The notes beneath the pieces are model-generated. The model did not search any database and was not told the origin of the DNA. It was given only the letters and a program-made list of their open reading frames with translations. A program made the position numbers and the translations under genes. From positions 1-64,000 of the forward strand of contig NZ_BAFK01000006.1 of the NCBI RefSeq assembly GCF_000296695.1: 64,000 nt of DNA, written 5' to 3'. This stretch comes from Rheinheimera nanhaiensis E407-8. Lineage in GTDB: Bacteria > Pseudomonadota > Gammaproteobacteria > Enterobacterales > Alteromonadaceae. Shown here piece after piece: positions 2,905-31,490 of this stretch. Each line of letters begins with the position of its first letter. Within the stretch, counting starts at the first letter, position 1.

Positions 2905-3009
2905 TGATGAGTTATGAGTGTTTAGTTATGGAGGCGGAGTTTACCTTAAAACCAAGCCCTAAGCACTCACAACTCATCACTCAACATTCACTACTAAACA
3001 CTAATAACT
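2905..3009. repeat. Degenerate TGATGAGT/GTGTTTAGT inverted repeat between ugd and the MBL gene
   Basis: The left arm (2905-2927) contains TGATGAGT and GTGTTTAGT on the plus strand. The right arm (2961-3009) carries the same words in reverse complement (ACTCATCACTCA, ACTAAACACT). The right arm supplies the last codons and stop of the MBL gene (VVISV, TAG at 2994-2996). Related strings occur at 16966-17001 and 34864-34880. The function is unknown. Confidence 0.6.
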
Positions 3010-4403
3010 ACGTCTTTAACATAAACCGCCAGCGCCTGCTGCAGTGCTTGTTTGGCGCCGTTATCACCATGCACTATGCGCACTCTGTCAGGCACTTTAT
3101 GCATCCGGCTAACAAAATTCACTAAACCTGTTTTATCAGCGTGGGCTGAATAGCCACTTAACGTAATAATTTCCGCCGCTATGGCTATGCGCTCGCCGTC
3201 AATATCAACATAACCACCTTTGGGGCCATATTGCTGTATCGCTGCGCCAAGCGTACCGCGCGCCTGATAACCAACAAACACCACCTGATGGGCGCTATCT
3301 GACAATAAGGCTTTTAAGTAATTCACTACCCGGCCGCCTTCGCACATGCCACTGGCAGCAATCACTATTGCTGGCTGGCGGCTTTGGGCTAAAAACTGCA
3401 CCAAGGCCTGGTGCTGGGCGTGGTCATCTATAGTATGAAGCTGTTCAAAGCTAAGCGGATGTCGGCCTTGCTTCAGCCGGCTTTTCGCCTCGTTATCCCA
3501 GTAAGGCTTTAACTCACTGTAAGCCTGGTTAAAACGCGCCGCGAGCGGCGAGTCGACAATTATTTGCAGCTCATCCCACTTAAGGTGCTGGTGTATTTTC
3601 TGGCCACGCAAGCGGTGAATAATGGCTTCCAGCTCGTACAACAGCTCCTGGGTGCGGCCAATACTAAAAGCCGGGAACAATACGGTGCCATTATCTTTTA
3701 GCGAATGCAGCAGCACCTGCTCTAAACGCTTTATACGGCTGCGCCTGTCATCATGCAACCTGTCACCATAGGTGCTTTCGATAACCACTTCATCAGCCGC
3801 ATAAGGCGCTTTGGGTGCCGGCAACAGCGGCGCGTAAGGCGCACCTAAGTCGCCAGAAAACACGGTTTTATAGCCTTTTTTAAGTGGCGTATTGTGCTTA
3901 AGCTCTACATAAGCCGAGCCTAAAATATGGCCGGCGTGCTGAAAGCGCAGCATAGGTGCCGCGCCGGCAAGTTCAGGCAAGGCCAGCCAGCGGTTAAAAT
4001 CACAAGGCACTAACTGGCGGCGCAGCCGCGCCAACACGCCGTTTATCAGTGTAGGGTCGCGGCTAATACCCATCTTTACCGCGTCTTCCAGCACCAGTGG
4101 CAACAACACTGCCGAAGCCTGGGTGCAATAAATTGGCCCGCTAAAGCCAGCGGCTAATAAATACGGAATACGCCCCACATGGTCAATATGCACATGGGTA
4201 ACAATAAGGGCGCGAATATGCCCGATGGCAAAATCAATCTGTGGCTTGCCCGCCGAGCCGCTGTTAGACACTTCAGCGCCCTGAAACAAACCGCAGTCAA
4301 TCAGCAGGCCGTAATCGTCACTTAAGCGGTATTCGTGGCAAGAGCCGGTAACGCCATCTACAGCGCCGTGGTGGATGAATTTGGGTGTGGGGTATAACGT
4401 CAT
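2994..4403 (-). CDS. Beta-CASP metallo-beta-lactamase-fold protein (RNA-specificity domain)
   Basis: The chosen start is the ATG at 4403 (MTLYPTPKFIHHGAVDG), with AGGA 8-9 bases upstream; an in-frame extension to 4454 exists but has no better signal. The 469-residue product has the metal motif VTHVHIDHVGR, then GHILGSAYVEL, FSGDLG and ESTYGDR. A beta-CASP insert carries PAFSIGRTQELL, then SGMCEGGRVVNYL, and the C-terminal GYSAHADKTGL is the RMMBL-type motif. These are the hallmarks of YSH1/CPSF-73-like nucleases and related hydrolases. It is inserted between nucleotide-sugar genes and has no obvious sugar role. A ribonuclease or an RNA-linked regulatory role is possible, but the substrate cannot be read from sequence. 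Confidence 0.85.
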   Translation of the reverse strand: MTLYPTPKFIHHGAVDGVTGSCHEYRLSDDYGLLIDCGLFQGAEVSNSGSAGKPQIDFAIGHIRALIVTHVHIDHVGRIPYLLAAGFSGPIYCTQASAVLLPLVLEDAVKMGISRDPTLINGVLARLRRQLVPCDFNRWLALPELAGAAPMLRFQHAGHILGSAYVELKHNTPLKKGYKTVFSGDLGAPYAPLLPAPKAPYAADEVVIESTYGDRLHDDRRSRIKRLEQVLLHSLKDNGTVLFPAFSIGRTQELLYELEAIIHRLRGQKIHQHLKWDELQIIVDSPLAARFNQAYSELKPYWDNEAKSRLKQGRHPLSFEQLHTIDDHAQHQALVQFLAQSRQPAIVIAASGMCEGGRVVNYLKALLSDSAHQVVFVGYQARGTLGAAIQQYGPKGGYVDIDGERIAIAAEIITLSGYSAHADKTGLVNFVSRMHKVPDRVRIVHGDNGAKQALQQALAVYVKDVVISV

Positions 4404-4428
4404 AGAAAATCCTTTTTTATGACTTCTC

Positions 4429-4451
4429 AGAGCGGCAATAATTGCCGCTCT
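4429..4451. repeat. Perfect intercistronic hairpin upstream of the MBL gene
   Basis: A 10-bp stem (AGAGCGGCAA and its complement) closes on a 3-nt loop. It sits between the stop of the PglE-like gene (4466) and the MBL start (4403). No T-run follows directly on the minus strand, so it looks more like an mRNA stability or attenuation hairpin than a simple terminator. Confidence 0.6.
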
Positions 4452-4465
4452 CATTAGGCTAATGA

Positions 4466-14817: not shown

Positions 14818-15898
14818 ATATTGCTTTCCCAACTTCAGAAATGATTAGTGAAACGTCTTCTGATGACAGGGCATAATAGAGCGGCAAACACAGCGTCCTA
14901 TTTGATAGCGATTCAGATACAGGACATTGCGCGGCGTACTGATCTTTAAAATTCTCGACCAGGTTTAATGATGGTGAAAAATAGCGTCTTGCGGTTATGC
15001 CATTTCTTGCCAGGGAGTTAAGTACCTGAGTACATTGGATATCGTCTTTAAATGTGATCGGAAGATAGGCCCCATTTTTTGTCGCGTGACTTCTCCAGAT
15101 TGGTTGATAACCTAAGCTTTGTAAACCATCACAATACTGTTCATAAAGTGCAATACGATGTGACAGGATCTGGTCAATATCATCCAATACGGCAAGCCCC
15201 ATAGCGGCATGTACTTCGCTCATTTTTGTATTAATACCGGCGTCAACGATATTGCCTGTAGATGTATCAATGCCAAAATTGGTCATTAAGACGGCGCGCT
15301 CGTAGTCGTCACTATTTTTAAATATAACAGCTCCGCCTTCAACACTGTGAAACACCTTGGTAGCATGGAAGCTTAGGGTAGATGCATCGCCATAATTCAG
15401 TACGCTATTACCATTTACCTTAACCCCAAAAGCGTGGGCGGCATCGTAAATCACTTTAACTTTGTGCTCTTTGCCTATTTGCTCAAACGCTTCAACATCA
15501 CAAGGGTTACCGTATACATGCACTGGCACTATCGCTGTGGTGTCGGTATCTATGGCCTGGCGAGCTTTATTCGGGCATAAGTTATAACTTAGCGGGTCAA
15601 TGTCAGCAAACTTGGGGGTTATACCTTCCCATGCCAAACTACTGCTGGTGGCGATAAATGTAAAAGGCGTAGTTACCGCATTGCCTTTTAAATTAAACAC
15701 TTTATAGGCAAGTTGCATAGCGAGAGTGCCATTAGCCACTGGCAATAAGTTTTTTACGCCCAGATATTCTTCCAGCCGTACTTTTAGTTCCTGAACTAAA
15801 GGGCCGTTGTTTGTTAACCAGGCTTTGTCATAAACGCGTTCAAGGTACTTGGTGTATTTTTCAAATGCAGGTAAATAAGGTTTATTAACTGGAATCAT
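14804..15898 (-). CDS. DegT-family dTDP-4-amino-4,6-dideoxyhexose transaminase (VioA-like)
   Basis: This 364-residue PLP enzyme reads [19 protein letters not shown], then [41 protein letters not shown] and the PLP lysine near residue 181 in [14 protein letters not shown]. The SFHATK context, WLTNNGP and GNPCDVEA are typical of VioA/FdtB-type transaminases acting on dTDP-ketosugars. Its ATG overlaps the rmlA stop (ATGA). RmlA and RmlB upstream supply dTDP-4-keto-6-deoxyglucose, so a 4-aminotransferase is expected. FdtB-type 3-amination would need a keto-isomerase, and none is seen. Confidence 0.85.
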
Positions 15899-16764
15899 TT
15901 TGCTTTCACCAACTCAGCTAAATACTGGCCGTAGCTGTTCTTCGTCATAGTATCGGCAATCCGGCTAATATCCGCTGCTGATAACCAACCATTAATAAAA
16001 GCAATCTCTTCAAGCACTGCGACTTTAAATCCCTGCCGGTGTTCAATCGTTTGCACAAACGATGATGCCTCAAGCAGGCTGTCGTAGGTGCCGGTATCCA
16101 GCCAAGCAAAACCACGGCCCAGCATTTCAACCTGCAAATTTCCGCGCTTTAGATATTCGCGGTTAACACAAGTAATTTCCAACTCACCCCGTGCTGACGG
16201 CTCGATTCGTTTGGCTATGTCGATAACATCATTATCGTAAAAATAAAGCCCGGTTACCGCATAGTTAGACTTTGGTTTGGCCGGTTTTTCTTCTATAGAA
16301 ATAGCTTTTTTGTTTTCGTCAAACTCCACCACGCCAAAACGCTCGGGATCGCGCACCTGATAACCGAATACCGTCGCCCCTGTTTTTCTGGCAGCTGCTT
16401 GTTTTAACTTGGGGCTAAAACTCTGGCCGTAGAAAATGTTATCGCCCAGCACCAGGCATACATTATCATTACCGATAAATTCTTCACCAATAATAAAGGC
16501 TTGGGCCAAACCGTCCGGGTTTGGCTGTGCTGCATAGCTAAGATGAATACCAAAGTCACTACCATCGCCCAGTAAACGCTGGAATGCTGCTTGGTCTTCC
16601 GGTGTGGTAATGATCAGAATATCTCGTATACCAGCCAGCATCAGCACCGACAATGGATAGTAAATCATCGGTTTGTCATAAACTGGCAACAACTGCTTAG
16701 ATACACCACGGGTTATAGGATACAAGCGTGTACCCGAACCACCGGCTAATACTATACCTTTCAT
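15895..16764 (-). CDS. rmlA: Glucose-1-phosphate thymidylyltransferase
   Basis: This 289-residue enzyme forms dTDP-glucose from dTTP and glucose-1-phosphate. The N-terminal loop [20 protein letters not shown] and [16 protein letters not shown] are textbook RmlA. LGDNIFYG carries the metal Asp, and [21 protein letters not shown] and [13 protein letters not shown] complete the active site. Ribosome-binding site GGAGC precedes the ATG. It lies 3 bp from rmlB and overlaps the VioA-like gene by 4 bp. With RmlB it feeds both dTDP-rhamnose (RmlC and RmlD are encoded 10 kb upstream in the same direction) and the dTDP-4-amino sugar. Confidence 0.97.
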
Positions 16765-16767
16765 TTG

Positions 16768-17841
16768 CTAAGCTCCTTGCCCTAAACGCTCCAGCTTGTA
16801 GCTGCCGTCCAGTACTGCCTGCCACCAGTTTTTATTGTTTAAGTACCACTGCACGGTTTTGCGTAAGCCGGTTTCGAAAGTTTCTTCGGGCTTCCAGCCA
16901 AGTTCACGTTCTATTTTGCTGGCGTCAATAGCGTAGCGTAAGTCGTGACCAGGGCGATCGGTTACGTGAGTGATGAGTGATGCGTGTTTAGTGTTGAGTG
17001 GGTAACCGCGCTCATGCATTGGTGCCAGTTCGTCCATCAGCTCACAGATGGCATGCACCACTTCGATATTTTGTTTTTCGTTGTGGCCGCCGATGTTATA
17101 GGTTTCACCAACTACGCCCCCGGTTACTACCTTGTACAAAGCACGGGCGTGATCTTCTACGTAAAGCCAGTCGCGCACCTGGTTGCCCTTGCCGTACACC
17201 GGCAGCGGCTTGCCAGCTAAGGCATTTAAAATAATCAGCGGTATCAGCTTTTCCGGGAAATGGTAAGGGCCATAGTTGTTAGAGCAATTAGTTACAATAA
17301 CCGGCAAGCCGTAAGTACGCTGCCAGGCCCGCACTAAATGATCTGAACTGGCTTTACTGGCCGAATATGGGCTGCTTGGCGCATAAGGTGTAGTTTCAGT
17401 AAACAAATCATCAGTGCCATGCAAATCACCGTACACTTCATCGGTAGAGATATGGTGAAAACGAAATGCCTGTTTACGCTCTTCCGGTAAAGCTTTCCAA
17501 TAATTACGCGCAGCCTCCAGCAAGGAGTAAGTACCAACAATATTGGTTTCAATAAAAGCTGCCGGGCCATCTATAGAGCGGTCGACATGGCTTTCAGCAG
17601 CCAAATGCATAACGGCATCAGGTTGATGCTTTTCGAATACTGCAGCCATTGCCGTTGCATCACAAATATCTGCCTGGACGAATGTGTAACGAGTATTATC
17701 GGACACATCAGCTAATGAGTTTAAATTACCGGCATAAGTTAATTTGTCGAGGTTAACGACTTCGTTATTAGTGTTAGTACAGATATGGCGGACTACAGCA
17801 GAACCGATAAAACCCGCACCACCAGTAATTAATAGCTTCAT
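16768..17841 (-). CDS. rmlB: dTDP-glucose 4,6-dehydratase
   Basis: This 357-residue extended SDR protein makes dTDP-4-keto-6-deoxyglucose. It has the NAD loop [13 protein letters not shown] near residue 7, [26 protein letters not shown], the catalytic [12 protein letters not shown] and [28 protein letters not shown] and [17 protein letters not shown] follow. The ATG overlaps the wbpE stop by 4 bp, with GGAG upstream. Oddly, the segment just before DRPGHD is about seven residues longer than in E. coli RmlB/RffG. It is encoded by a degenerate repeat (16966-17001) also found in intergenic DNA elsewhere in the window. The rest of the protein is normal, so activity is probably kept. Confidence 0.97.
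16966..17001. repeat. Degenerate TGATGAGT repeat inside rmlB
   Basis: The plus-strand string contains GTGAGTGATGAGTGATG and GTGTTTAGTGTTGAGT. It closely resembles the left arm at 2905-2927 and the string at 34864-34880. It falls in frame in rmlB, encoding about residues 281-292 in the loop before DRPGHD. Confidence 0.6.
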
Positions 17842-20519: not shown

Positions 20520-21797
20520 TTAAAAACGAATATCTACCAGATTTTTATCAAGTACATATTTTAAGTCATAAATAACACTGTCTGGCCGACAAAACTTTCT
20601 GACGCCTTTAGCGCCCATCGCTTTAAATTCGCTGTGACCTACGGCTAATATAACGGCATCGTAGTTGCCCTGTACAGGCGCAGCAATCGGCGTTATGCCA
20701 TATTCGTGTAGTGCTTCTTCGGCATTAACCCAGGGATCAAACACATCGGGCATTACACCATATTCTTTTAACTCGGTAATAATATCGACCACTTTAGTGT
20801 TACGAATATCAGGGCAGTTCTCTTTAAAAGTTAACCCCATAACAAGTACCCGGGCTCCTTCTACGTGAATACGTTTTTTTAGCATTGCCTTTACCAGCTC
20901 ACTAACAACGTATTGTCCCATACTGTCATTAATACGCCGCCCAGCGAGGATAACCTCGGGGTGATAACCTACAGACTGTGCCTTATGCGTTAAATAGTAA
21001 GGGTCTACCCCGATACAGTGGCCGCCGACTAAACCCGGCCGGAACGGCAGGAAATTCCATTTGGTGCCTGCTGCCAGCAGCACTTCTTCGGTGTCGATAC
21101 CCAGCTTGTTAAAAATCACCGCCAGTTCGTTTATCAGGGCAATATTTAAATCGCGCTGGGTGTTTTCGATAACTTTGGCTGCTTCTGCCACCCGGATTGA
21201 GCTGGCTTTGTAGGTGCCGGCGGTAATAATGCTGCGGTATAAGCCATCGACAAATTCAGCAACTTCTGGCGTGGAGCCCGAAGTGACTTTTTTAATCGTC
21301 GTGACCCGATGCTCTTTATCGCCCGGGTTTATCCGCTCAGGGCTGTAGCCGGCAAAAAAGTCGACGTTGTATTTAAGGCCAGATACGCGCTCAATCACCG
21401 GAATACAATCTTCTTCGGTGGCGCCCGGGTACACGGTAGACTCGTAAATGACGACGTCACCGGCTTTAATCACTTTACCTAAGGTTTCTGACGCCTTTAT
21501 CAGCGGGGTTAAATCGGGCTGGCGGTGCTCGTCTATCGGGGTGGGCACGGTAACAATAAACACATTGGCGCGACGTAAGTCGTTGATATCTGCACTGTAG
21601 CTAAGCTTAGTGGCCTCTGACAGCTCTTCTGAGCTCACTTCCAACGTATGGTCTTCGCCACGCTGTAACTCACGGATGCGCGCCTGGTTAATGTCAAAAC
21701 CCAAGGTAGCGTAGTGTTTACCAAACTCGACCGCCAATGGCAGGCCAACGTAGCCCAGGCCTACAATGGCAATATGTACTTTATCTAGATCTCTCAA
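20520..21797 (-). CDS. tviB: UDP-N-acetylglucosamine 6-dehydrogenase, TviB/WbpO type (copy 2)
   Basis: This 425-residue nucleotide-sugar dehydrogenase has the NAD loop [20 protein letters not shown] (residues 10-29), [16 protein letters not shown] and [29 protein letters not shown] follows, with the catalytic Cys in [19 protein letters not shown] and [16 protein letters not shown]. The sequence is of the TviB/WbpO group rather than WbpA proper. Its place before wbpB-wbpD-wbpE implies that it performs the WbpA step (UDP-GlcNAc to UDP-GlcNAcA). The TTG start overlaps the wzz stop (TTGA). It is a close paralogue of 27877-29154. Confidence 0.92.
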
Positions 21798-22738
21798 ACC
21801 GACGCCCTGCTCTGTCTAAAATAATGCCGTAAAATAACTGCGAATATCGCAATAAAACCACCTAAAAACGTACAAACGATAACAAGAACAGCCCTAGCTG
21901 GCCGGGCCTTTTCTTCCGGCACTATCGCGCTATCTATAACTTTTAACGCATATTCATCACGTACATTCGCCAGCATTAAAGTTTTAGTTTGCTCCTCAAT
22001 GAGTGAATACAGCGCGGTGCGTAAATCTGCGATATTGGTTTGGCTAATTTGCTGCTGCAGATAGGCAATACTTTTTTCGGCTTCTTCAATATCGCGGGTT
22101 TTCATTTCCAGGTTTAAATCGGCAATCAGCATTTGCACCCAGCTTTGCGCGATATAGGGCGATTGATGCTCGATACTCAGCTTTACCATGCCGGTAGTTT
22201 TGTCCTGGCTTACACTGAGGATTTCAGACAGCGCTTTATAAGCTTCCTGCAAAGAGGGCTGAGCTTGCTTTGGTGGTTTAACTTCGCGCAGCCACTGTTG
22301 ACTTTCCGGGTTATAAACATCTAAGTCGTATTTTAGAGAGTTAGTAGTAAGGTCCCAGCTTTTAACCGCCATTAAGTCTTGCAGCTGAATACGCTGCTGA
22401 ATAAAGCGGCTGAGAAAATCGCGCGATTTTACTACCTCAATAGCCAAGGCAGTTTTATCCACCCCGGCGCCACTGCCCAAGCTAACACCAGCAAGCGCGG
22501 CTAGGCCACCTAATTGGCCCGATAACCCAGCCCCTTTTTGCTCGGCGGCCGGCGCTAACAACGCCTCAGATTTATAAATATTCGGCAAGCTTAGCGCATA
22601 AAACACCGATGCAACGGCAAAAATCGCCGTGACCGCGATAATAAGCCACTTACCCTGCCAGATAGCAGCGAATAGCTCGCGCAGGTCTATTTCGTCGTCG
22701 GCCACACGCGAAAGCGTGGCGTTTTGTTGTTCAGACAT
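21794..22738 (-). CDS. wzz: Chain-length determinant protein (Wzz/PCP family)
   Basis: The ATG at 22738 ([12 protein letters not shown]) has AAGGAA at ideal spacing and is preferred to a GTG at 22762. The 314-residue inner-membrane protein has an N-terminal [17 protein letters not shown] segment, TM1 at about 31-52, the post-[14 protein letters not shown] motif, and a periplasmic helical domain. That domain has a Gly/Ala-rich [17 protein letters not shown] stretch typical of this group. TM2 near the C-terminus is preceded by PARAVLVIV. There is no tyrosine-kinase domain. It sets polymer length with the Wzy-like protein. It overlaps the tviB copy downstream. Confidence 0.93.
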
Positions 22739-22778
22739 AGAGTTCCTTGAAAATTCGCTCACTTAACAATTAACAGCT

Positions 22779-22809: not shown

Positions 22810-25518
22810 TTAGAATGAATTAAGCGCTGCTATTGCTACTGCAGTTTGATAGAAAATTTGCGTTACCTGGGCCCACAGACTTAAGCCATCTTTGTAGTCG
22901 GTGTCTAGCGGCACTATGATGGTGTCGCCCGGTTTTAACACGTCTGATTTTACGCTATACCAGCTGCGGTTGGGCACATACACAGAGCCGTCTGCGCGGA
23001 TAACGTAAATACGGTCTTCGTCGGCGCGTTTACGCATACCACCGGCCAGGCGGATATACTGCTCGACATTCACACTGGTGTCGTAACGGTGCGTGCCCGG
23101 TAACTGCACCTCACCTAATACCGACACTGCGCTGTTGCGCCTTGGAATAAGCAGCTGATCGCCATCTTCTACTACCAGGTTATGCTGTGGGTTTGCTGCC
23201 AGTATTTGCTCGGCATTTATTACCAGCCGGCCAACGGGGGTCATATTTTCCAGCTGCGCTATCATGCCCATCGCATCAGCAGGGGTTGTCATTGAGCTAC
23301 TCGCCGTAAGTGCTTTGGTAGCAATGTCTGACTTTAACTGTTCCAACAAGCGTTTATGCTGCACCTGCTCGCGCTGCTGAATATTGCGCCGGGTAAATAC
23401 AGCGCCGTATAAGAAGGCATCGTCGGTAACACCGCCAGCACGGGCAAGCACGTCGGATAGCGTTTCACCCTTTTGAATACTGTAGACACCAGGGAAGCGT
23501 ACTTCACCCTGAATGGTGATTTTACGCGCTAATGACCAGTCTGGCGTAGCAAAAATATTAAGCCGGTCGCGGCTTTGCAGCGGCAGTTGTGCTGCCTGCC
23601 CCTCAACTATAGCCGCCAGATTAACCGGCATATGGCTTACCGTTACTGCGTTTTGCTCGCCGTTAGTTAACTTATAACGGCTAAGCTCGGCGCGCTGTAA
23701 AAACGCTGCCGGGTTAACACCGCCAGCTGCGGCGAGTAAATCGGTAACGCCGGCGCCCTGCGTCAGCGGGTATTCACCCGGTACTTTTACTTCACCAGAT
23801 ACCGACACCAGCTGCACGCTATGTTGCACATTACTTTGCTGCTTTAAACGTTGCAGCACCGGATAGAGTAATTCGGTACGGGTTAAATGGGCTGAATATG
23901 CTATTAGGCTACTATCGGTAAGCACATTTTGTAGCAGCTGCTGCAGCTGGGCTTTAAGCAAAGATTCGGCACTGACAGCAACCTCATCATTACTGGCCTG
24001 AACTTCGGAGGTGCGTAGCGCATCCTCTACTTTCAGTTGTTCAAAGGTACGCCCTGCTACGTCTCCTGCTAGTGTGGCATTTAGTGATAACGCGGTAAGC
24101 TTAGGAGCCAGTTGCTCACGCAAATAGCCATTTAGCGTATCGCGCTTATAACCATTGTCGGCATGGTGAAACACCAGCACGGTATCGTTGGCCTGCAGCT
24201 GCGTTGTGGGCTGAGGGCTGTTTAGGGCATTGGCCAGATTAAACTGCAGTACGCTAATATCGCCACGCAGGTTTTGCTGACGTACGATAAGGGCGTAGTC
24301 TAAGTCTGCCGACCAGAGCAAGTCGGACCACAGTGATGGAATAAGATCTTTTACCTGCATACCCTGACGCCAGGCGTACATTCCCGGGCGGGCAACCGCG
24401 CCAGCTAAGGTAACCTGATTTTGTACCCGATTGGATACTTGATCTACCCGCAGTACGTCGCCATTTTTAACACTGACGTTGCCGCTGTTGTTATTGGACA
24501 GGTCGACGTTTTTAATATCACGCAGGTTGTTTGCACTAATGCGTTCTAACCGCGCAGACGCAGCGTGAGCAGTCGCCTTTAAGCCACCGGCCATCGACAC
24601 CAGGTCGCTGAGCTGTTCGTTGGCTGTAAGCTCGTATAAACCGGGACGAACCACTTCACCGGTTACCTCTGCCAAGGCTTTATAGGGTGGCACAAATACT
24701 ACGTCGCCGTGCTTAAGGTTAATATCACCGCGGTTATCGCCACGTAACAATAAATTGTACAAGTCAAAACTGGCGACGGTTTCGCCACGGCGTTTAACCT
24801 CAATTGCCCGCAAGCTGCCAACATCAGACACGCCACCGGCGACAAATAAAGCCTGAGTAACACTGGTAAGGGCAGACACCGCATACATACCGGGGTTTTT
24901 CGCTTCACCTGCCAAAAACACATTGATACTACGCGTGGTGCCCATGCTCACAGCCGCCTGGGTGCCTATCATGGCAGCACTGACACGCTCGGCAATAAGT
25001 TCGCGGGCAGTTGCAAAGGTTAAGCCGCCTACTACCATGGGGGCTAAATCGGGAATGGTTATTTTGCCTTCACGGTCGACGCTTAAAGATAAGTCACTAC
25101 TTTGCTTACCAAATAACTGCACTAGTAAGGTATCGCCGGCGCCCAGCACGTAGCCTTCTGGTACAGGGGCATTATCAACCGGCGCAAAGGTACTGATGTC
25201 AGCATTAAACAAAGCCAGGCCAAAGCGCTGTGCTTTTTGCTCAACTTGTTGTTGCATGCTAACGTCTTGTTCCGTTTGCCGGGATGGCTCACGCGGCGTC
25301 AGCGGTTCAACCTGGTCGCGTTGTGACTCTGCCGTTTGGCTGACAGCAGAGAACTGGTTAAGATCAACACCGTATTGGCGCGCCAGCTGCTCCTGCTGCG
25401 CCCGAGGCAACTTTTTAAACTGCTCTATCATGGCCGGCGATGGCGTTACTGCCTGCGCTGCAACCAGAGGTGAGCCCAGCAGCAGTGCCAGGCAAGCATA
25501 TTTAACGTATTTAAGCAC
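22810..25518 (-). CDS. Multi-SLBB polysaccharide export outer-membrane protein (Wza-like)
   Basis: This 902-residue secreted protein has an N-terminal signal peptide (about 1-23, ending VAAQA) and a short charged helix. A poly-export domain spans roughly 115-200 (YVLGAGDTLLVQLFGKQSSD, then REGKITIPDLAPMVVGG). At least five SLBB-type units follow, recognised by repeated G-E/A-V-x-x-P-G-x-Y phrases such as GEVVRPGLYEL, GAVARPGMYAW, GEVKVPGEYPL, GEVRFPGVYSI and GEVQLPGTHRY. No lipobox cysteine is present, unlike E. coli Wza, and it is more than twice as long. It probably forms the periplasm-spanning/outer-membrane channel. The start is GTG with GGAG upstream. It is the first gene after the ops leader. 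Confidence 0.9.
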   Translation of the reverse strand: MLKYVKYACLALLLGSPLVAAQAVTPSPAMIEQFKKLPRAQQEQLARQYGVDLNQFSAVSQTAESQRDQVEPLTPREPSRQTEQDVSMQQQVEQKAQRFGLALFNADISTFAPVDNAPVPEGYVLGAGDTLLVQLFGKQSSDLSLSVDREGKITIPDLAPMVVGGLTFATARELIAERVSAAMIGTQAAVSMGTTRSINVFLAGEAKNPGMYAVSALTSVTQALFVAGGVSDVGSLRAIEVKRRGETVASFDLYNLLLRGDNRGDINLKHGDVVFVPPYKALAEVTGEVVRPGLYELTANEQLSDLVSMAGGLKATAHAASARLERISANNLRDIKNVDLSNNNSGNVSVKNGDVLRVDQVSNRVQNQVTLAGAVARPGMYAWRQGMQVKDLIPSLWSDLLWSADLDYALIVRQQNLRGDISVLQFNLANALNSPQPTTQLQANDTVLVFHHADNGYKRDTLNGYLREQLAPKLTALSLNATLAGDVAGRTFEQLKVEDALRTSEVQASNDEVAVSAESLLKAQLQQLLQNVLTDSSLIAYSAHLTRTELLYPVLQRLKQQSNVQHSVQLVSVSGEVKVPGEYPLTQGAGVTDLLAAAGGVNPAAFLQRAELSRYKLTNGEQNAVTVSHMPVNLAAIVEGQAAQLPLQSRDRLNIFATPDWSLARKITIQGEVRFPGVYSIQKGETLSDVLARAGGVTDDAFLYGAVFTRRNIQQREQVQHKRLLEQLKSDIATKALTASSSMTTPADAMGMIAQLENMTPVGRLVINAEQILAANPQHNLVVEDGDQLLIPRRNSAVSVLGEVQLPGTHRYDTSVNVEQYIRLAGGMRKRADEDRIYVIRADGSVYVPNRSWYSVKSDVLKPGDTIIVPLDTDYKDGLSLWAQVTQIFYQTAVAIAALNSF

Positions 25519-25758
25519 CCGAAAACTCCAGTGTTATTTGGTTATTCTGACTATTTAGTCTGTTTCAGGCACGCTACCGCCACTAGGTTACAGCACCCTA
25601 ATGCCTGATGGTACACGCCTGATTGATGAAGCTGCGCTTAACGCACCGCAACTGTAGGGCATTGGCAATAAAAAACTGCCTGGCGCCTTAGCAAAAAACG
25701 TCGGAATATTACCGTTTTTTTTGCGTTTAATCGAATGTTATTACCGCTTTGTTACTGC
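25519..25758 (-). promoter_or_regulatory. Operon leader upstream of the export genes
   Basis: This 240-bp non-coding leader lies between rfaH and the SLBB exporter. It holds an ops element near its downstream end. It also has two A/T-flanked weak hairpins at about 25660-25725 that could end rfaH transcription (GGCGCC core followed by a T6 run on the minus strand). A promoter is expected here, but I cannot define -35/-10 boxes with confidence. Confidence 0.55.
25570..25581 (-). promoter_or_regulatory. ops element (RfaH recruitment site)
   Basis: The minus strand reads GGCGGTAGCGTG, an exact match to the ops core GGCGGTAGnnT known from E. coli RfaH-controlled operons. It lies 52 bp upstream of the SLBB exporter start, in the untranslated leader, and 178 bp downstream of the rfaH stop. 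In known systems the paused polymerase at ops recruits RfaH, which suppresses termination through long polysaccharide operons. Confidence 0.85.
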
Positions 25759-26289
25759 TTAAGCATCACTTGTAGGTTTTTTCGGCGCCAGCTGGCCATT
25801 ATCGAAACTGGATGCAACCCATTGCCCCAGTAGGCTAACCAAAATAACGCTGCGTTTGTCGCCATCAGTGGTATTAAATACTGCCTGCAATCCGGCAAAA
25901 GGCCCGGTTAAAATATTAACTGCCTCGCCCGGTTTAAACCCAGCTTCGGGCAGCTGCTGCTTAAGGGTAATTTGCTGCGCAGTTAGCTGTGCAACTAACT
26001 GCTGTGGCACAGTGGCAAGCTGAAGACCAAAGCGGACAAAGTCGGTAATGCCACGAGTGGCGCGAATAGCGCGCATGTTTAGCTCTTGCCCGGCTGGCAG
26101 ATGTAAAAATAAATAACGCGGGAATAATGGCTCGGTGACTTGGCACCAGCGGTTAGCACGCAGCTTTTGCAGCGTAATTTGTGGCACAAAGGAGTGAAAA
26201 CCCTGATTGGCTAAATGCTGCTGGGCACGCAGTTCCTGCCGCGGCTTGCAATAAAGCAAATACCATTGGCTTGTTGTTTGGCTTGACAC
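25759..26289 (-). CDS. rfaH: Transcription antitermination factor RfaH
   Basis: The GTG at 26289 is chosen because AAGGG lies seven bases upstream; an in-frame ATG extension to 26367 adds 26 residues with no homology to RfaH. The product (about 176 residues) has the NGN domain with SQWYLLYCKPRQELRAQQHL, FVPQITLQKLR, VTEPLFPRYLFLHLPAG and IRATRGITDFVRFG. A KOW-containing C-terminal part follows (FKPGEAVNILTGPFAGLQAVF, then GDKRSVILVSLLG). These match E. coli RfaH closely (WYLLYCK, EPLFPNYLF, ATRGVSHFVRFG). It lies directly before the ops-bearing leader, so it likely activates the downstream ~25-kb polysaccharide operon in cis. Confidence 0.94.
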   Translation of the reverse strand: MSSQTTSQWYLLYCKPRQELRAQQHLANQGFHSFVPQITLQKLRANRWCQVTEPLFPRYLFLHLPAGQELNMRAIRATRGITDFVRFGLQLATVPQQLVAQLTAQQITLKQQLPEAGFKPGEAVNILTGPFAGLQAVFNTTDGDKRSVILVSLLGQWVASSFDNGQLAPKKPTSDA

Positions 26290-26373: not shown

Positions 26374-27249
26374 TCAATCGCCCTTATCTCTGTGACGGGA
26401 TAAACGGGTTAACGCCTGCTGCCAGGACGGCAAGCTGATACCAAAGGTTGTGCTAAATGCCCGACTGTTAAGTGCTGAATAAGCTGGCCGTTTTACGCCG
26501 CCGGCCCAGTGTTTACTGCTAACAGCTGTTAACACTGGTGTAAGCTGGTGTGCCGCAAATATAGCGCTGGCAAACTGATACCAGCTAACAGCCGGTGTTG
26601 AGGCTAAATGATAGATGCCATAAGAAAATTGCGCTTTGTCGCTTTGATTATACTGCGCAAGCACCTTAAGCACCGCATCGGCAACATCGCCGGCATAGGT
26701 AGGGCAACCTGTTTCGTCATCTACCACGCTAATAGCAGTACCTTTTTCTGCCAGCGTTAACATAGTGCGGTAAAAGTTGTGGCCGTATTGGCTAAACAGC
26801 CAGCTAGTGCGAAATATCAGGTACCGCTGGCAGTGCTGCTGTATTGCCTGCTCGGCCAACAGCTTACTTTGGCCATAAACATTAAGCGGCGCTGTGCTGT
26901 CGGTTTCAATATAAGCACTGCCTTTTTCGCCGTTAAACACATAGTCGGTAGAAAACTGCACCAGCAAACACTGTGCTTTGGCGCAAAGCTGCGCTAAGTG
27001 CACAACTGCATTGGTATTAATTTGCAGGCACAGTTCAGCTTGCTGCTGCGCCAGCGCAACCTTGGTGTAGGCGGCACAGTTAATCACCACATCGGGCTGA
27101 TACGCGGTGATAAGCTGCTGAAGTGCTTTGCTGTCGGTGATATCAAGCTGGGCATGATTTAGCGCCAGGCTGTTATTGCCCGGCCAAAAGGGGCTTTGGC
27201 AAAACGCCTGGCCTAACTGACCGCCCGCGCCTAATAGCAATAGCTTCAT
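26374..27249 (-). CDS. rmlD: dTDP-4-dehydrorhamnose reductase
   Basis: This 291-residue SDR enzyme performs the last step of dTDP-L-rhamnose synthesis. It has the N-terminal MKLLLLGAGGQLGQAFCQS with GxxGxxG, then LDITDSKALQQLI, VVINCAAYTKV, QFSTDYVFNGEK, the catalytic YGQSKLLAEQAI and FRTSWLFSQYGHNF. The C-terminal half (STPAVSWYQFASAIF, RPAYSALNSRAF) is typical. It lies 24 bp downstream of rmlC and just upstream of rfaH. RmlA and RmlB are encoded about 9 kb downstream, in the second half of the locus. Confidence 0.95.
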   Translation of the reverse strand: MKLLLLGAGGQLGQAFCQSPFWPGNNSLALNHAQLDITDSKALQQLITAYQPDVVINCAAYTKVALAQQQAELCLQINTNAVVHLAQLCAKAQCLLVQFSTDYVFNGEKGSAYIETDSTAPLNVYGQSKLLAEQAIQQHCQRYLIFRTSWLFSQYGHNFYRTMLTLAEKGTAISVVDDETGCPTYAGDVADAVLKVLAQYNQSDKAQFSYGIYHLASTPAVSWYQFASAIFAAHQLTPVLTAVSSKHWAGGVKRPAYSALNSRAFSTTFGISLPSWQQALTRLSRHRDKGD

Positions 27250-27273
27250 GACACTAGCTTCATGGGGATAGCT

Positions 27274-27807
27274 TCATCTAAGCGCCTGTTTAAAACCCGG
27301 CGCTGCGGCATCTTTGTCGGATAACAGCTTAGGCATCACAGGCCAGGCTATTGCCAGATCGGCATCATTCCAGATAAAGCTGCCCTCATCACTGGCCTGG
27401 TAATACTGGCTGGTTTTGTACAGCACGTCAGCCACATCTGACAGCACTAAAAAGCCATGCGCAAAACCCGGTGGCAACCACAGCTGTCTTGGTTGATGTT
27501 CAGATAAATATTCGCCATGCCACTGGCCAAAAGTAGCTGAGCCGGGGCGGATATCCACTGCGACATCAAAAATTTCACCGCGCAGCACACTAATTAACTT
27601 ACCCTGCGCATGATTGCGCTGAAAGTGCATGCCACGCAGCACGCCTTTAACCGAACGCGACCAGTTATCCTGCACCAAAGGCGTGTTAATACCGGCAGCG
27701 CTGTAATCAGCGGCGCGGAACATTTCCTGAAAAAAACCGCGCTTGTCGCTAAAGCGCTTAGGCTCAAGCAGCACACAACCGGCCAGAGGCGTATTGATAA
27801 TGTTCAT
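27274..27807 (-). CDS. rmlC: dTDP-4-dehydrorhamnose 3,5-epimerase
   Basis: This 177-residue cupin enzyme has FSDKRGFFQEMFRAADY at about 17-33, VQDNWSRSVKGVLRGMHFQR with the catalytic His in RGMHFQ, GKLISVLRGEIFDVAVDIR, and GFAHGFLVLSDVADVLYKTS with the second functional region. WNDADLAIAWP is near the end. The length fits RmlC. It is immediately upstream of rmlD, with tviB copy 1 upstream of it. The C-terminus (KDAAAPGFKQALR) is slightly different from the enteric form but unremarkable. Confidence 0.96.
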   Translation of the reverse strand: MNIINTPLAGCVLLEPKRFSDKRGFFQEMFRAADYSAAGINTPLVQDNWSRSVKGVLRGMHFQRNHAQGKLISVLRGEIFDVAVDIRPGSATFGQWHGEYLSEHQPRQLWLPPGFAHGFLVLSDVADVLYKTSQYYQASDEGSFIWNDADLAIAWPVMPKLLSDKDAAAPGFKQALR

Positions 27808-27876: not shown

Positions 27877-29154
27877 TTACAGCCGTAAATCACTATCACG
27901 GCTATCGAGCACATATTTTAAGTCGTACAAAATGCTGTCGGCTTTCATCAGTGTGCGAATGCCCGCCGCGCCCAGGGTACGAAACTCTTTATGCCCCACC
28001 GCCAGTATCACCGCATCGTAAGCGCCCTGCTCTGGCTTGGTAAGCGGCGTAATACCGTATTCGTGCTGCGCCTGTTCTATGTCTACCCAGGGGTCGAACA
28101 CGTCGGCCTGTACACCGTATTCTTTTAACTCGGCTAAAATATCCACTACTTTGGTGTTGCGGATATCCGGGCAGTTTTCTTTAAATGTCAGGCCCATTAT
28201 TAGTACTTTTGCACCTTGTACATGCATATGACGCACAATCATAGCTTTGACCAGCTGCCCCACCACATAGCGGCCCATACTGTCGTTAATGCGCCGCCCG
28301 GCCAATATCACCTCAGGGTGGTAACCTATCGCCTGCGCTTTGTGGGTTAAGTAGTATGGGTCTACCCCTATACAGTGGCCACCGACTAAGCCTGGGCGAA
28401 ATGGTAAAAAGTTCCACTTGGTGCCAGCGGCTAACAGCACTTCTTCGGTATCGATGCCGAGTTTATTGAAAATGACCGCCAGCTCGTTAATTAAGGCGAT
28501 ATTTAAATCGCGCTGGGTGTTTTCAATCACTTTAGCCGCCTCGGCCACCCGGATGGAGCTGGCTTTATAAGTGCCGGCGGTAATAATGCTGCGATATAAA
28601 CTGTCGACGAATTCCGCTACTTCTGGGGTGGAGCCAGAGGTGACCTTTTTGATGGTGGTAACCCGGTGCTCTTTGTCGCCCGGGTTTATCCGCTCCGGGC
28701 TGTAGCCGGCAAAAAAATCGACGTTGTATTTTAGCCCCGACACTCGCTCAATCACCGGGATGCAGTCTTCTTCGGTGGCGCCTGGGTACACGGTAGACTC
28801 GTAAATTACCACATCACCGGCTTTAATTACTTTGCCTAAGGTTTCTGAGGCTTTAACCAGTGGCGTTAAATCCGGCTGGCGGTGCTCGTCTATGGGTGTG
28901 GGCACAGTCACAATAAACACGTTGGCACGGCGTAAATCGGCTAAATCAGCGCTGTAGCTAAGCTTAGTGGCTTGTGACAGTTCATCCGGGCTGACTTCTA
29001 ATGTGTGGTCTTCGCCACGCTGTAACTCGCTGATACGTGCCTGGTTAATATCAAACCCCAGGGTATGGTAGTGTTTACCAAACTCGACCGCTAACGGCAG
29101 GCCGACATAGCCCAGGCCAATAATAGCAATCTGGCTGTCTGCAAGTGTTCTCAT
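27877..29154 (-). CDS. tviB: UDP-N-acetylglucosamine 6-dehydrogenase, TviB/WbpO type (copy 1)
   Basis: This 425-residue paralogue of the 20520-21797 product is identical over long stretches (for example [48 protein letters not shown]). The first ~12 residues and the C-terminal UDP-binding third diverge most ([20 protein letters not shown] against [20 protein letters not shown]). DNA differences are mainly at third codon positions, so both copies appear to be selected for function. It lies next to tviC, as in Vi-antigen and WbpO/WbpP loci, implying synthesis of UDP-GlcNAcA for epimerisation to UDP-GalNAcA. The ATG is preceded by AGGAA. Confidence 0.93.
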
Positions 29155-29200: not shown

Positions 29201-30205
29201 TTATTGTTGCTGAATATACCATGGCATCGCCCGTTTTATGCCATCCAGAATGCGATACTCTGGCGCATAACCCAGCAGCGCTTTGGCTTTGCTGATATCA
29301 GCCTGCGAGTGACGCACATCGCCGGGGCGAAACTCGCCGTATTTCGCCGCTTTGCGATAAACAATACCATTGTCGGCCAGACTTTGGCGGATGGCGGCGA
29401 ACAGCTCATTGAGTGTGGTTCTGTCCCCCAGTGCCACGTTAACCACTTCGCTTTGGCTGATAGTGGCCAGCGCCGCGCGGATATTGGCCTGCACGGCGTT
29501 GGCAACAAAGCAAAAATCGCGGCTGGTTTCACCGTCGCCGTTAATGACCACATCATCGCCTGCGATCATCGCCGCTGTCCATTTGGGGATCACCGCCGCA
29601 TAGGCGCCGTTAGGGTCTTGCCGGGGGCCAAACACATTAAAATAGCGCAGGCCGACACTGTGAAAGCCATAAGTACGGGAGAACACGTCAGCATATAACT
29701 CGTTGACATACTTGGTAATGGCATAAGGCGATAACGGCTTGCCGATAACCTCTTCTACCTTGGGCAGCGCCGGATGGTCACCATAGGTCGAGCTTGACGC
29801 AGCATACACAAAGCGTTTTACGCTGGCGTCACGCGATGCAACCAGCATGTTTAAAAAACCGCTGATATTGGTATCGTTAGTGGTAATGGGGTCGTTAATC
29901 GAGCGCGGCACTGAGCCAAGCGCGGCCTGATGTAGCACATAATCGACGCCCTGACAGGCTTGCTGGCAATCGGTAAGCTGACGGATGTCGGCCTTGATAA
30001 AACGAAAATTGGCCCACTGCGCTGCGCTTACCAGGCTTTTTACTTCATCCAGATTGCGCTGATGGCCGGTAGCAAAATTGTCCAGCCCCACTACTTTTTG
30101 GTTAGCTTTTAGCAGCACCTCGACCAGATTAGAGCCGATAAAACCGGCGCAGCCAGTGACCAGCCAGGTGTGCGAGGCCTTCGCCAGCGCGGCGTTAATA
30201 TCCAT
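29201..30205 (-). CDS. tviC: UDP-GlcNAc(A) C4-epimerase, TviC/WbpP type
   Basis: The ATG at 30205 ([18 protein letters not shown]) with AGGAG nine bases upstream is preferred to an extension to 30256. The 334-residue SDR epimerase has [59 protein letters not shown], the catalytic [17 protein letters not shown] and [20 protein letters not shown]. The N-terminal helix before the Rossmann fold and the SVPRSI/FGPRQDP motifs mark the WbpP/TviC group. It interconverts UDP-GlcNAc(A) and UDP-GalNAc(A). It lies downstream of wecB and upstream of tviB copy 1. Confidence 0.93.
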
Positions 30206-30265
30206 ATTTATAGTCTCCTTGTGTAAACCTTGTGTAAGCCGTTTTCGCGCGTGCAAAGCGCTGCA

Positions 30266-31390
30266 TTAACCACCTGCTTTAATGGCATCGATTATACGCT
30301 GACAGGCCTTGCCGTCGCCATAGGGGTTGTGGGCAAAGCTCATGCTGTCGTAATACGCCTTGTCGGTCAGCAGACGACTGGCCTCGGCAACAATTTTCGC
30401 TTTATCGGTGCCGACCAGCTTTACGGTACCGGCGGCAACCGCTTCTGGCCGCTCGGTGGTGTCGCGCATTACCAGTACCGGTTTACCCAAAGATGGCGCC
30501 TCTTCCTGAATACCGCCCGAGTCGGTCAACACTAACGTGGCGCGGCTCATTAAATAGACAAAGGGTAAATAATCCTGCGGTTCAATTAAATGCACATTGG
30601 CCGCATCAGACAACAAGCGGTATACCGGCTCACGCACATTGGGGTTTAAATGCACCGGATAGACAATGTCGCACTTGGGGAAGTCGGTAGCCAGCTGCTT
30701 AAGCGCCGCGCAAATGTTGTCAAAACCGGCACCAAAGCTTTCGCGCCGATGGCCGGTAACCAAAATAAGCTTACGGCCATGTTGGCCATAGGGGAATTTT
30801 TCCGCAAACGTCTGATTAAGTGCCGGGTCGTTGTCAATTTTCGCCACCACCTGCAGCAGCGCATCGATCACCGTATTGCCGGTTACCACGATGTGGGCCG
30901 GGTTTACCTGCTCGTTTAACAGGTTTTGCCGGGACGTTTCAGTCGGGGCAAAGTGGTAACGGGTTAAGGCACCGGTCAGTTTGCGGTTGGCTTCTTCTGG
31001 CCAGGGGCTGTAAATGTTACCTGTTCTAAGGCCAGCCTCTACATGGCCGACAGCAATTTTTTCATAATAGCAAGCCAGCGCCGCGGCAAAGGTAGTACTG
31101 GTATCACCGTGTACCAGCACCACGTCGGGTTTAAAGTCGCGCAGTACCGGCTTAATATTTAACAAAATACTGGTGGTCACATCATACAAGTCCTGCCCGG
31201 CTTTCATAATAGCCAGGTCGTACTCGGGCTTAATAGCAAATAGCTGCAGTACCTGATCGAGCATTTCTCTGTGCTGCCCGGTAACACAGACCCGGCTGTC
31301 GATATCGCTTTGCTGCTTGAGCAAATTTACCAGTGGCGCCATTTTTATCGCCTCTGGCCGGGTACCAAACACGCTAAGAACTTTAATCAT
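30266..31390 (-). CDS. wecB: UDP-N-acetylglucosamine 2-epimerase (non-hydrolysing)
   Basis: This 374-residue GT-B-fold enzyme interconverts UDP-GlcNAc and UDP-ManNAc. [14 protein letters not shown] is at about residues 8-21, followed by [53 protein letters not shown] and [30 protein letters not shown] and [20 protein letters not shown] complete the active site. It is closer to E. coli WecB than to WbpI/Cap5G. The ATG at 31390 follows a GTG by one codon; AAGGA serves either. No UDP-ManNAc dehydrogenase (WecC) is visible, so the fate of UDP-ManNAc is unclear. It is the first gene of the locus, divergent from 31491. Confidence 0.95.
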
Positions 31391-31490
31391 CACAGATCCT
31401 TATTCAGCTGATGGCGTAAAGCTTACCAAAAGCCCTTTTAAAGCGATAGCTCAAGCCGCTAAACTAGCGCCTGACCAAGAGGAATTGACC

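Follow-up and report, generated by a model that had tools for sequence, protein, structure and literature searches.

RfaH of Escherichia coli works with the ops/JUMPstart leaders of rfaQ, rfb, kps, hly and tra. A conserved JUMPstart stem-loop was reported earlier, as far as the available text goes (PMC2864571), and the accessible part of a study of the Vibrio vulnificus group 1 capsule operon describes an ops at the operon and lowered expression of distal genes upon knockout of rfaH (PMC7247339). In its available sections, a 2020 survey of the family places rfaH clusters beside polysaccharide genes, with E. coli-like RfaH acting in trans, and lists UpxY (Bacteroides), LoaP (Firmicutes), TaA (Myxococcus) and the plasmid-borne ActX as specialised paralogues of NusG whose genes lie within or next to the operon under their control (PMC7593976). 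Table 1 of a 2026 preprint counts an rfaH beside an operon for 17 of 212 metamorphic, eight of 12 mixed and seven of 10 monomorphic proteins, and the consulted portions of the same text report the RfaH proteins of Idiomarina/Pseudidiomarina as ops-independent monomorphic forms (PMC13015549). The published model, as outlined in those portions, holds that operon-linked NusG paralogues acted in cis first and that ops reading and autoinhibition arose for action in trans (PMC7593976, PMC13015549). At the locus described here, rfaH directly precedes an exact ops and a long polysaccharide gene run, and related genomes keep or lack gene and site together.

Organisation of the rfaH-ops locus

The window, which is the whole stretch of 64,000 nucleotides analysed, carries on its minus strand wecB, a tviC-like gene, tviB, rmlC and rmlD, followed by rfaH, a leader, a Wza-type exporter gene, wzz and a long run of polysaccharide genes (Table 1). 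This run comprises a second tviB, a Gfo/Idh oxidoreductase, hexapeptide transferases, aminotransferases, rmlB, rmlA and glycosyltransferases, as well as wzx, an EpsG-type protein, a sugar transferase, ugd and a nucleotidyl transferase. Minus-strand genes continue from 25518 to the edge of the window, which is also the end of the contig; if they form one unit, the exporter/synthesis operon measures at least 25.5 kb. Both rfaH and the exporter gene start with GTG, the former with a ribosome-binding-site-like AAGGGA six bases upstream and the latter, at 25518, preceded by a similar GGAG sequence.

Table 1. Features of the rfaH-ops locus in the window
Feature	Position	Strand	Evidence
wecB (UDP-GlcNAc 2-epimerase), start of the gene set before rfaH	30266..31393	-	NCBIfam TIGR00236, 531.5 bits
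tviC-like UDP-GlcNAcA C4-epimerase	29201..30256	-	best NCBIfam match PRK15181, 467.8 bits, under the cut-off of 760
tviB-type UDP-GlcNAc C6-dehydrogenase, copy one	27877..29154	-	NF011729, 647 bits (cut-off 592)
rmlC	27274..27807	-	TIGR01221, 227.9 bits
rmlD	26374..27249	-	TIGR01214, 293.1 bits
rfaH	25759..26289	-	TIGR01955, 164.7 bits (cut-off 144.5)
Promoter-like element TTCGAT-N18-TAATAT, past the rfaH stop	25706..25735	-	conservation
JUMPstart-type leader, hairpin then ops	25570..25606	-	Rfam RF01707, arm-swap test, leader model
ops core	25570..25581	-	exact 12-mer match
Wza-type polysaccharide exporter (Poly_export and SLBB repeats), first gene past ops	22810..25518	-	Pfam PF02563, PF10531
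wzz-type chain-length determinant	21794..22762	-	Pfam PF02706
Remaining polysaccharide gene run, to contig end	3..21797	-	

The ops core, GGCGGTAGCGTG, lies 177 bases past rfaH. An earlier note on this DNA had described a clear RfaH gene directly upstream of an exact ops 52 bp before the exporter. The protein exceeds both NCBIfam RfaH cut-offs (TIGR01955, Table 1; NF006534, 170.5 against 124 bits) and the match to ops is indeed exact, while the spacing needs correction to 51 intervening bases. No further ops at zero or one mismatch occurs elsewhere in the window; at up to two mismatches there are six matches against 6.6 expected, so such loose matches are uninformative. Across the whole genome, the 11-base core of ops occurs six times and its reversed pattern seven times (the window genome's five further core matches were examined at the one that is an exact 12-mer), so motif frequency alone shows nothing and the signal is carried by position and conservation.

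Several other features of the region were recorded. The two TviB-type dehydrogenases flanking rfaH and ops (27877-29154 and 20520-21797) share 86% identity. The rmlC and rmlD genes (26374-27807) precede ops and rmlA/rmlB-like genes (15895-17841) follow it, and one sugar pathway may thus be split across both halves of the locus. A beta-CASP/RMMBL metallo-hydrolase of the RNA-processing type is encoded at 2994-4454, within the polysaccharide run. Between 5600 and 25520, 29 terminator-like sites were counted on both strands, against 20.1 in shuffled sequences.

Regulator and site are kept or lost together in the genus

Thirty-one genomes of Rheinheimera/Arsukibacterium were compared. RfaH scored above cut-off in 15 and the exporter was found in 30, leaving 15 genomes with an exporter and no rfaH. 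In every one of the 15 rfaH-positive genomes, rfaH directly precedes the exporter gene with ops in between, 13 times exact, once with one mismatch (G008) and once with two (G002), and a site this regularly placed is not a chance match; tblastn also located wzz after the exporter in 14 of these loci. By contrast, none of the 15 exporter loci without rfaH has an ops at one mismatch or fewer within 500 bp. Their best 12-mers carry two to five mismatches, and the lone two-mismatch case (G028) gives no leader-model match at E<=0.5.

This leader model, a sequence-only model, was built from 32 linked leaders (L205, L214 and L219 having been dropped from 35). In each rfaH-positive genome it returned a single hit with E<=7e-5, always at rfaH (window leader, R1, E 1.5e-7), while all other matches in the 31 genomes had E>=0.098 and the 16 rfaH-negative genomes held no strong site. 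Of the roughly 500-1200 first-look candidates per genome, 150 were scored, so that weak extra sites could escape; the model was trained partly on the sites that it scored, and its informative part is the silence elsewhere. Within this scope, the window genome showed no leader-type target besides the leader adjoining rfaH, and in place of an E. coli-type trans regulon with several unlinked ops leaders, each rfaH-positive genome showed one strong leader site among its 150 candidates.

Exact 12-mers elsewhere in the genus number 18, against five for the reversed pattern, and are divided into 10 in the 16 genomes without rfaH and eight in the 15 with it. The 17 that were checked, all but G029:C14, were rejected as candidate trans targets: every one lies in a stop-to-stop frame of 226-893 codons, and none has a hairpin visible by eye. 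The frame test is a blunt one, as in G001 the genuine leader too reaches into a frame of 506 codons.

Pairwise comparisons located the loss. Between G015, which lacks rfaH, and G021, which has it, the flanks align around a replaced stretch of 209 bp versus 610 bp with rfaH, and G014 resembles G015 in having the rfaH stretch replaced and the flanks kept. Aligned with G016, G015 matches in the promoter region and at the exporter start and not in the intervening ops stretch; with G021 and G024, a gapped alignment at 72-73% identity spans that stretch. The rfaH-negative G018 still has a leader that aligns at 77-81% identity to its three closest rfaH-positive counterparts, with a decayed ops, GCCGTTAGCATG. 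GGTAGC-bearing 12-mers with three and four mismatches stand at near-equal distance in G006 and G017 and are possibly ops remnants. When the window RfaH was searched in five rfaH-negative genomes, the best match was their NusG (E 0.002).

An rpoB tree could be drawn for 27 of the 31 genomes, the other four lacking an rpoB match, and on it the presence of rfaH takes nine changes, the same as with shuffled labels. On an exporter tree of 30 genomes, made by a quick method and with long branches, it takes five against 10.3 for shuffled labels (0 of 500 as low). The scatter of rfaH on the first tree and its clustering on the second suggest that the pair moves along with the locus. Presence of rfaH and a leader-model match agree in 27 of 27 rows, and in all nine independent pairs on the rpoB tree the two traits switch jointly (p 0.004 by sign test; p 0.004-0.008 when ops is taken as a site with at most one mismatch). 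The simplest reading of these comparisons would be that the locus takes both elements with it when it moves, and that some lineages have lost the two jointly.

A JUMPstart-type hairpin precedes ops

Alignment of the rfaH-exporter gap from the window and eight genus members revealed three conserved blocks: a promoter-like element, a block ending in ops and the ribosome-binding-site/start region. The longest near-invariant block is the second, which opens with a hairpin and terminates in ops. In the window the hairpin arms are ATTAGG (25602-25597) and CCTAGT (25587-25582), giving six pairs, one of them G-U. Shuffle tests of single leaders were mostly weak (p 0-0.36; window, p 0.04). An arm-swap test across 35 distinct linked leaders gave a mean pairing of 12.0, against a permuted mean of 8.3 and maximum of 9.7, and none of 300 permutations of the 5' and 3' halves among leaders reached the observed score, under a null that ignores relatedness. 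The hairpin arms thus change together across lineages, as judged from the aligned leaders.

Against the Rfam JUMPstart model RF01707 the window leader gives an end-to-end alignment with 21.6 bits, under the gathering threshold of 35. In a search of 18 rfaH-linked loci, five passed that threshold, 10 matched at E<=1 and eight had no match, the window's own locus having none at E<=1 in that search.

Forms related to the promoter-like element align in eight rfaH-positive relatives and are also seen in several rfaH-negative ones. A consensus promoter scan called no promoter at this position, and it is conservation that makes us call the element promoter-like. Since a GGAG ribosome-binding-site-like sequence precedes the exporter gene itself, activation of translation may be less important here than in leaders without one.

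Features of the RfaH protein

A single RfaH was found in the window genome, with nusG as the sole other match to the NusG family. Models of the UpxY and LoaP families gave the window RfaH 71.5 and 41.1 bits, under their cut-offs of 100 and 125, respectively. The available text of two studies names K10, H20, R23 and R73 as ops contacts of E. coli RfaH (PMC5995543) and E48, I93 and F130 as residues of its autoinhibition (PMC7593976). The window protein keeps K10, H20 and R73 with N in place of R23, and keeps E48, F130 and also R138 with V in place of I93; the H65-T66-T67 motif of E. coli RfaH is absent. Among 68 linked RfaH proteins, K10, Q24 and R138 are present in all 68, R73 in 60 and E48 in 59, while 27 have F and 38 have Y at position 130, with a similar distribution in unlinked RfaH; this count omits seven named loci already present among the genus or order rows and classes G002, with its two mismatches, as unlinked.

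The best AlphaFold model of the window RfaH has a beta-barrel C-terminal domain. The RfaH of Citrobacter sedlakii, which we take to be metamorphic as that of a close enteric relative, also gave a beta-barrel from the same 108 rows, and AlphaFold was therefore dropped as a test of fold switching.

Base T6 of ops flips into a pocket of E. coli RfaH. An ops variant with A at this base, GGCGGAAGCGTG, was observed at nine loci (L141, L143, L144, L146, L149, L151, L207, L247 and L347, the last sharing a contig with L241). All nine have an RfaH with N20, the variant occurs at none of 29 linked loci with H or Q at position 20, and 30 N20 loci retain T6, in counts uncorrected for kinship. We remark on this as apparent co-variation of T6A with N20.

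Linkage beyond the genus

In a sample of 118 genomes of the family, 17 had an RfaH over cut-off, three of them within the window's genus. Across 24 loci from other genera, some of them below cut-off, 12 had a same-strand ops after rfaH with zero or one mismatch. One genus (g11) had rfaH in 17 of 17 genomes and a linked site in nine. Among named loci, 17 of the best 80 of at least 562 had ops within 400 bp of rfaH, including Aliidiomarina, Denitrificimonas, Methylicorpusculum, Seongchinamella and Tepidicella, and the enteric and Aeromonas loci within those best 80 had no linked ops, two Aeromonas contigs ending within 250 bp. An order-wide sample of 158 genomes gave RfaH in 72, at 75 loci, with linked ops within 420 bp at 26 of the 75, compared with none for the reversed motif and one for ops in the 420 bp before rfaH. 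The distance taken as linked varies among these counts (400, 420 or 450 bp), and some loci are short, L250 with 154 bp after rfaH and the named loci L173, L181 and L186 with less than 250 bp.

Linkage is frequent in families f6 (5/8), f7 (8/9), f12 (3/3) and f16 (5/7), and was not found in f2 (0/11), f18 (0/8), f21 (0/6), f25 (0/9) or four families with a single locus each. In ten linked named loci, the first long downstream frame has Pfam polysaccharide export or sugar-nucleotide enzyme domains in seven, the other three being a glutamine amidotransferase, Uma2 and one without a family. A FastTree of 196 RfaH proteins requires 22 changes in linkage, against 57 when shuffled, with at least 10 forced by supported branches. 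As this tree is unrooted and has many long branches, we do not claim from it that linkage is ancestral.

Individual loci showed further variation. Aliidiomarina L193 and L222 have an exact ops and a JUMPstart-like hairpin after rfaH, and Idiomarina L177 and Aliidiomarina L225 do not. Eight enteric loci (L199, L213, L216, L217, L218, L220, L221 and L227) have a one-mismatch ops-like 12-mer inside rfaH, 152 bases before its end. One genome of the family sample (G069) has six RfaH/NusG family matches.

Proposed mechanism and alternatives

In our view the locus very probably holds an RfaH antitermination module that is complete in itself and acts on its own operon. RfaH would be produced from the last gene of the upstream set. 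RNA polymerase would start between rfaH and the exporter gene, transcribe the JUMPstart leader and pause at ops, where RfaH would read the ops hairpin in the non-template strand and load onto the polymerase. It would then stay on through the adjacent exporter/synthesis operon, over at least 25 kb, excluding NusG and Rho and aiding translation. We observe how the locus is built, that the pairing is conserved, that gene and site are missing together and that each rfaH-positive genome has one strong site; from these we infer pausing, loading and antitermination, as well as the independence of the upstream half. Given its position and the conserved promoter-like element between rfaH and ops, the wecB-tviC-tviB-rmlC-rmlD half would escape RfaH control. 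Counting against the module are the changes R23N and I93V and the missing H65-T66-T67 motif, the imperfect ops of G002 and G008, the window score under the RF01707 gathering threshold, the negative promoter scan and the mostly weak hairpins of leaders shuffled one by one.

The earlier note had suggested a self-contained antitermination switch, to be checked by conserved rfaH-ops adjacency in related genomes and refuted if close relatives with the same operon lacked ops. Adjacency recurs in all 15 rfaH-positive genus genomes and at a fraction of loci in several other families. Ops is absent from relatives with the operon only where rfaH is missing too (none of these 15 leaders has it at one mismatch or fewer), which supports the link between the two. 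The conserved pairing and joint absence thus favour the proposed switch, with the regulation itself deduced from them. The note mentioned neither the JUMPstart hairpin nor the lack of a second leader-type site. The arrangement is also less unusual than the note implied, being seen at 26 of the 75 order-sample loci.

Three other explanations were weighed. RfaH could be a general trans regulator that lies in a capsule locus by chance, with adjacency reflecting co-inheritance only. E. coli RfaH does act in trans on unlinked targets, according to the available text of the 2020 survey (PMC7593976), and the repeated switching of linkage on the RfaH tree, with its 22 changes and at least 10 forced by supported branches, would suit such a regulator. 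It is hard to reconcile with the lack of a second strong leader site in the genus, among 150 candidates scored per genome, or with the other exact 12-mers, which lie in open frames and are about equally frequent in genomes without (10/16) and with (8/15) rfaH, and we regard a chance placement as quite unlikely. A constitutively active, ops-independent RfaH that loads co-translationally in cis, with ops as a pause only, has been proposed for operon-adjacent monomorphic homologues, seven of 10 of which adjoin an operon in the preprint's table (PMC13015549, available portions). The beta C-terminal domain in the AlphaFold model of the window protein agrees with this, but the Citrobacter control gave the same fold. 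Moreover, the ops contacts and most autoinhibition residues are kept among the 68 linked proteins (position 130 being mixed F/Y) and ops is exact at 13 of 15 genus loci; on sequence grounds, this retention speaks more for recruitment by way of the ops sequence than for a constitutively active factor in cis, which we think unlikely.

It is very improbable, finally, that the leader is an RNA or pause element working without RfaH. Rfam lists JUMPstart among its RNA families, its stem-loop is conserved according to the accessible text of its report (PMC2864571), and the hairpin arms co-vary, but no comparable leader was found at the 15 rfaH-negative exporter loci and in G018 it has visibly decayed. 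The reading that we prefer remains the cis module, in which rfaH and its adjacent leader would work as a pair. With related species keeping or losing rfaH and ops together, this module looks like a portable, self-contained on-switch for a sugar-coat operon.

More tentatively, RfaH and its single JUMPstart/ops leader may form a monogamous cassette that is exchanged with capsule-type loci, the cis pairing, with specificity and autoinhibition residues in place, being the standing or ancestral state and the multi-target trans regulon of enterics derived; we hold this as possible and rather doubtful. If the cis pairing is ancestral, ops specificity would have evolved for fidelity in cis and not for action in trans. 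A genus whose RfaH retains most residues for reading ops and has one adjacent site, with species lacking both, makes the cis-first order of events testable. The signature of rfaH, JUMPstart/ops and operon in succession can be used to find RfaH targets outside enterics, and the regulator with its site offers a part for use in the expression of long gene clusters.

Comparison with known systems

The locus resembles the E. coli RfaH system in its protein family, its exact ops, its JUMPstart-type hairpin and its long surface-polysaccharide operon. It differs in that the rfaH of E. coli lies apart from the several operons that it serves, whereas the window rfaH directly precedes the only leader-type site found. 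UpxY, LoaP, TaA and ActX, whose recruitment was called unknown in 2020 (PMC7593976, available text), differ from the window locus, which has an RfaH-type ops. The V. vulnificus capsule operon shares an ops at the operon, with an adjacent rfaH not among the features described in the accessible text (PMC7247339). Like RfaH clusters CL2-CL8, of which CL7 is that of Shewanella, and the operon-adjacent RfaH of the 2026 preprint, the window rfaH adjoins a polysaccharide operon; in their available parts, the descriptions of both cover gene neighbours and no ops/JUMPstart leader beside rfaH. A literature search, mostly of titles and the beginnings of abstracts, returned no published report of an rfaH with an ops leader next to it. 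RfaH itself, ops, JUMPstart and rfaH genes adjoining an operon, including metamorphic forms, are already known, and what is new is the pairing in cis of one regulator with one site, in which most residues for reading ops are retained, and the loss of both together.
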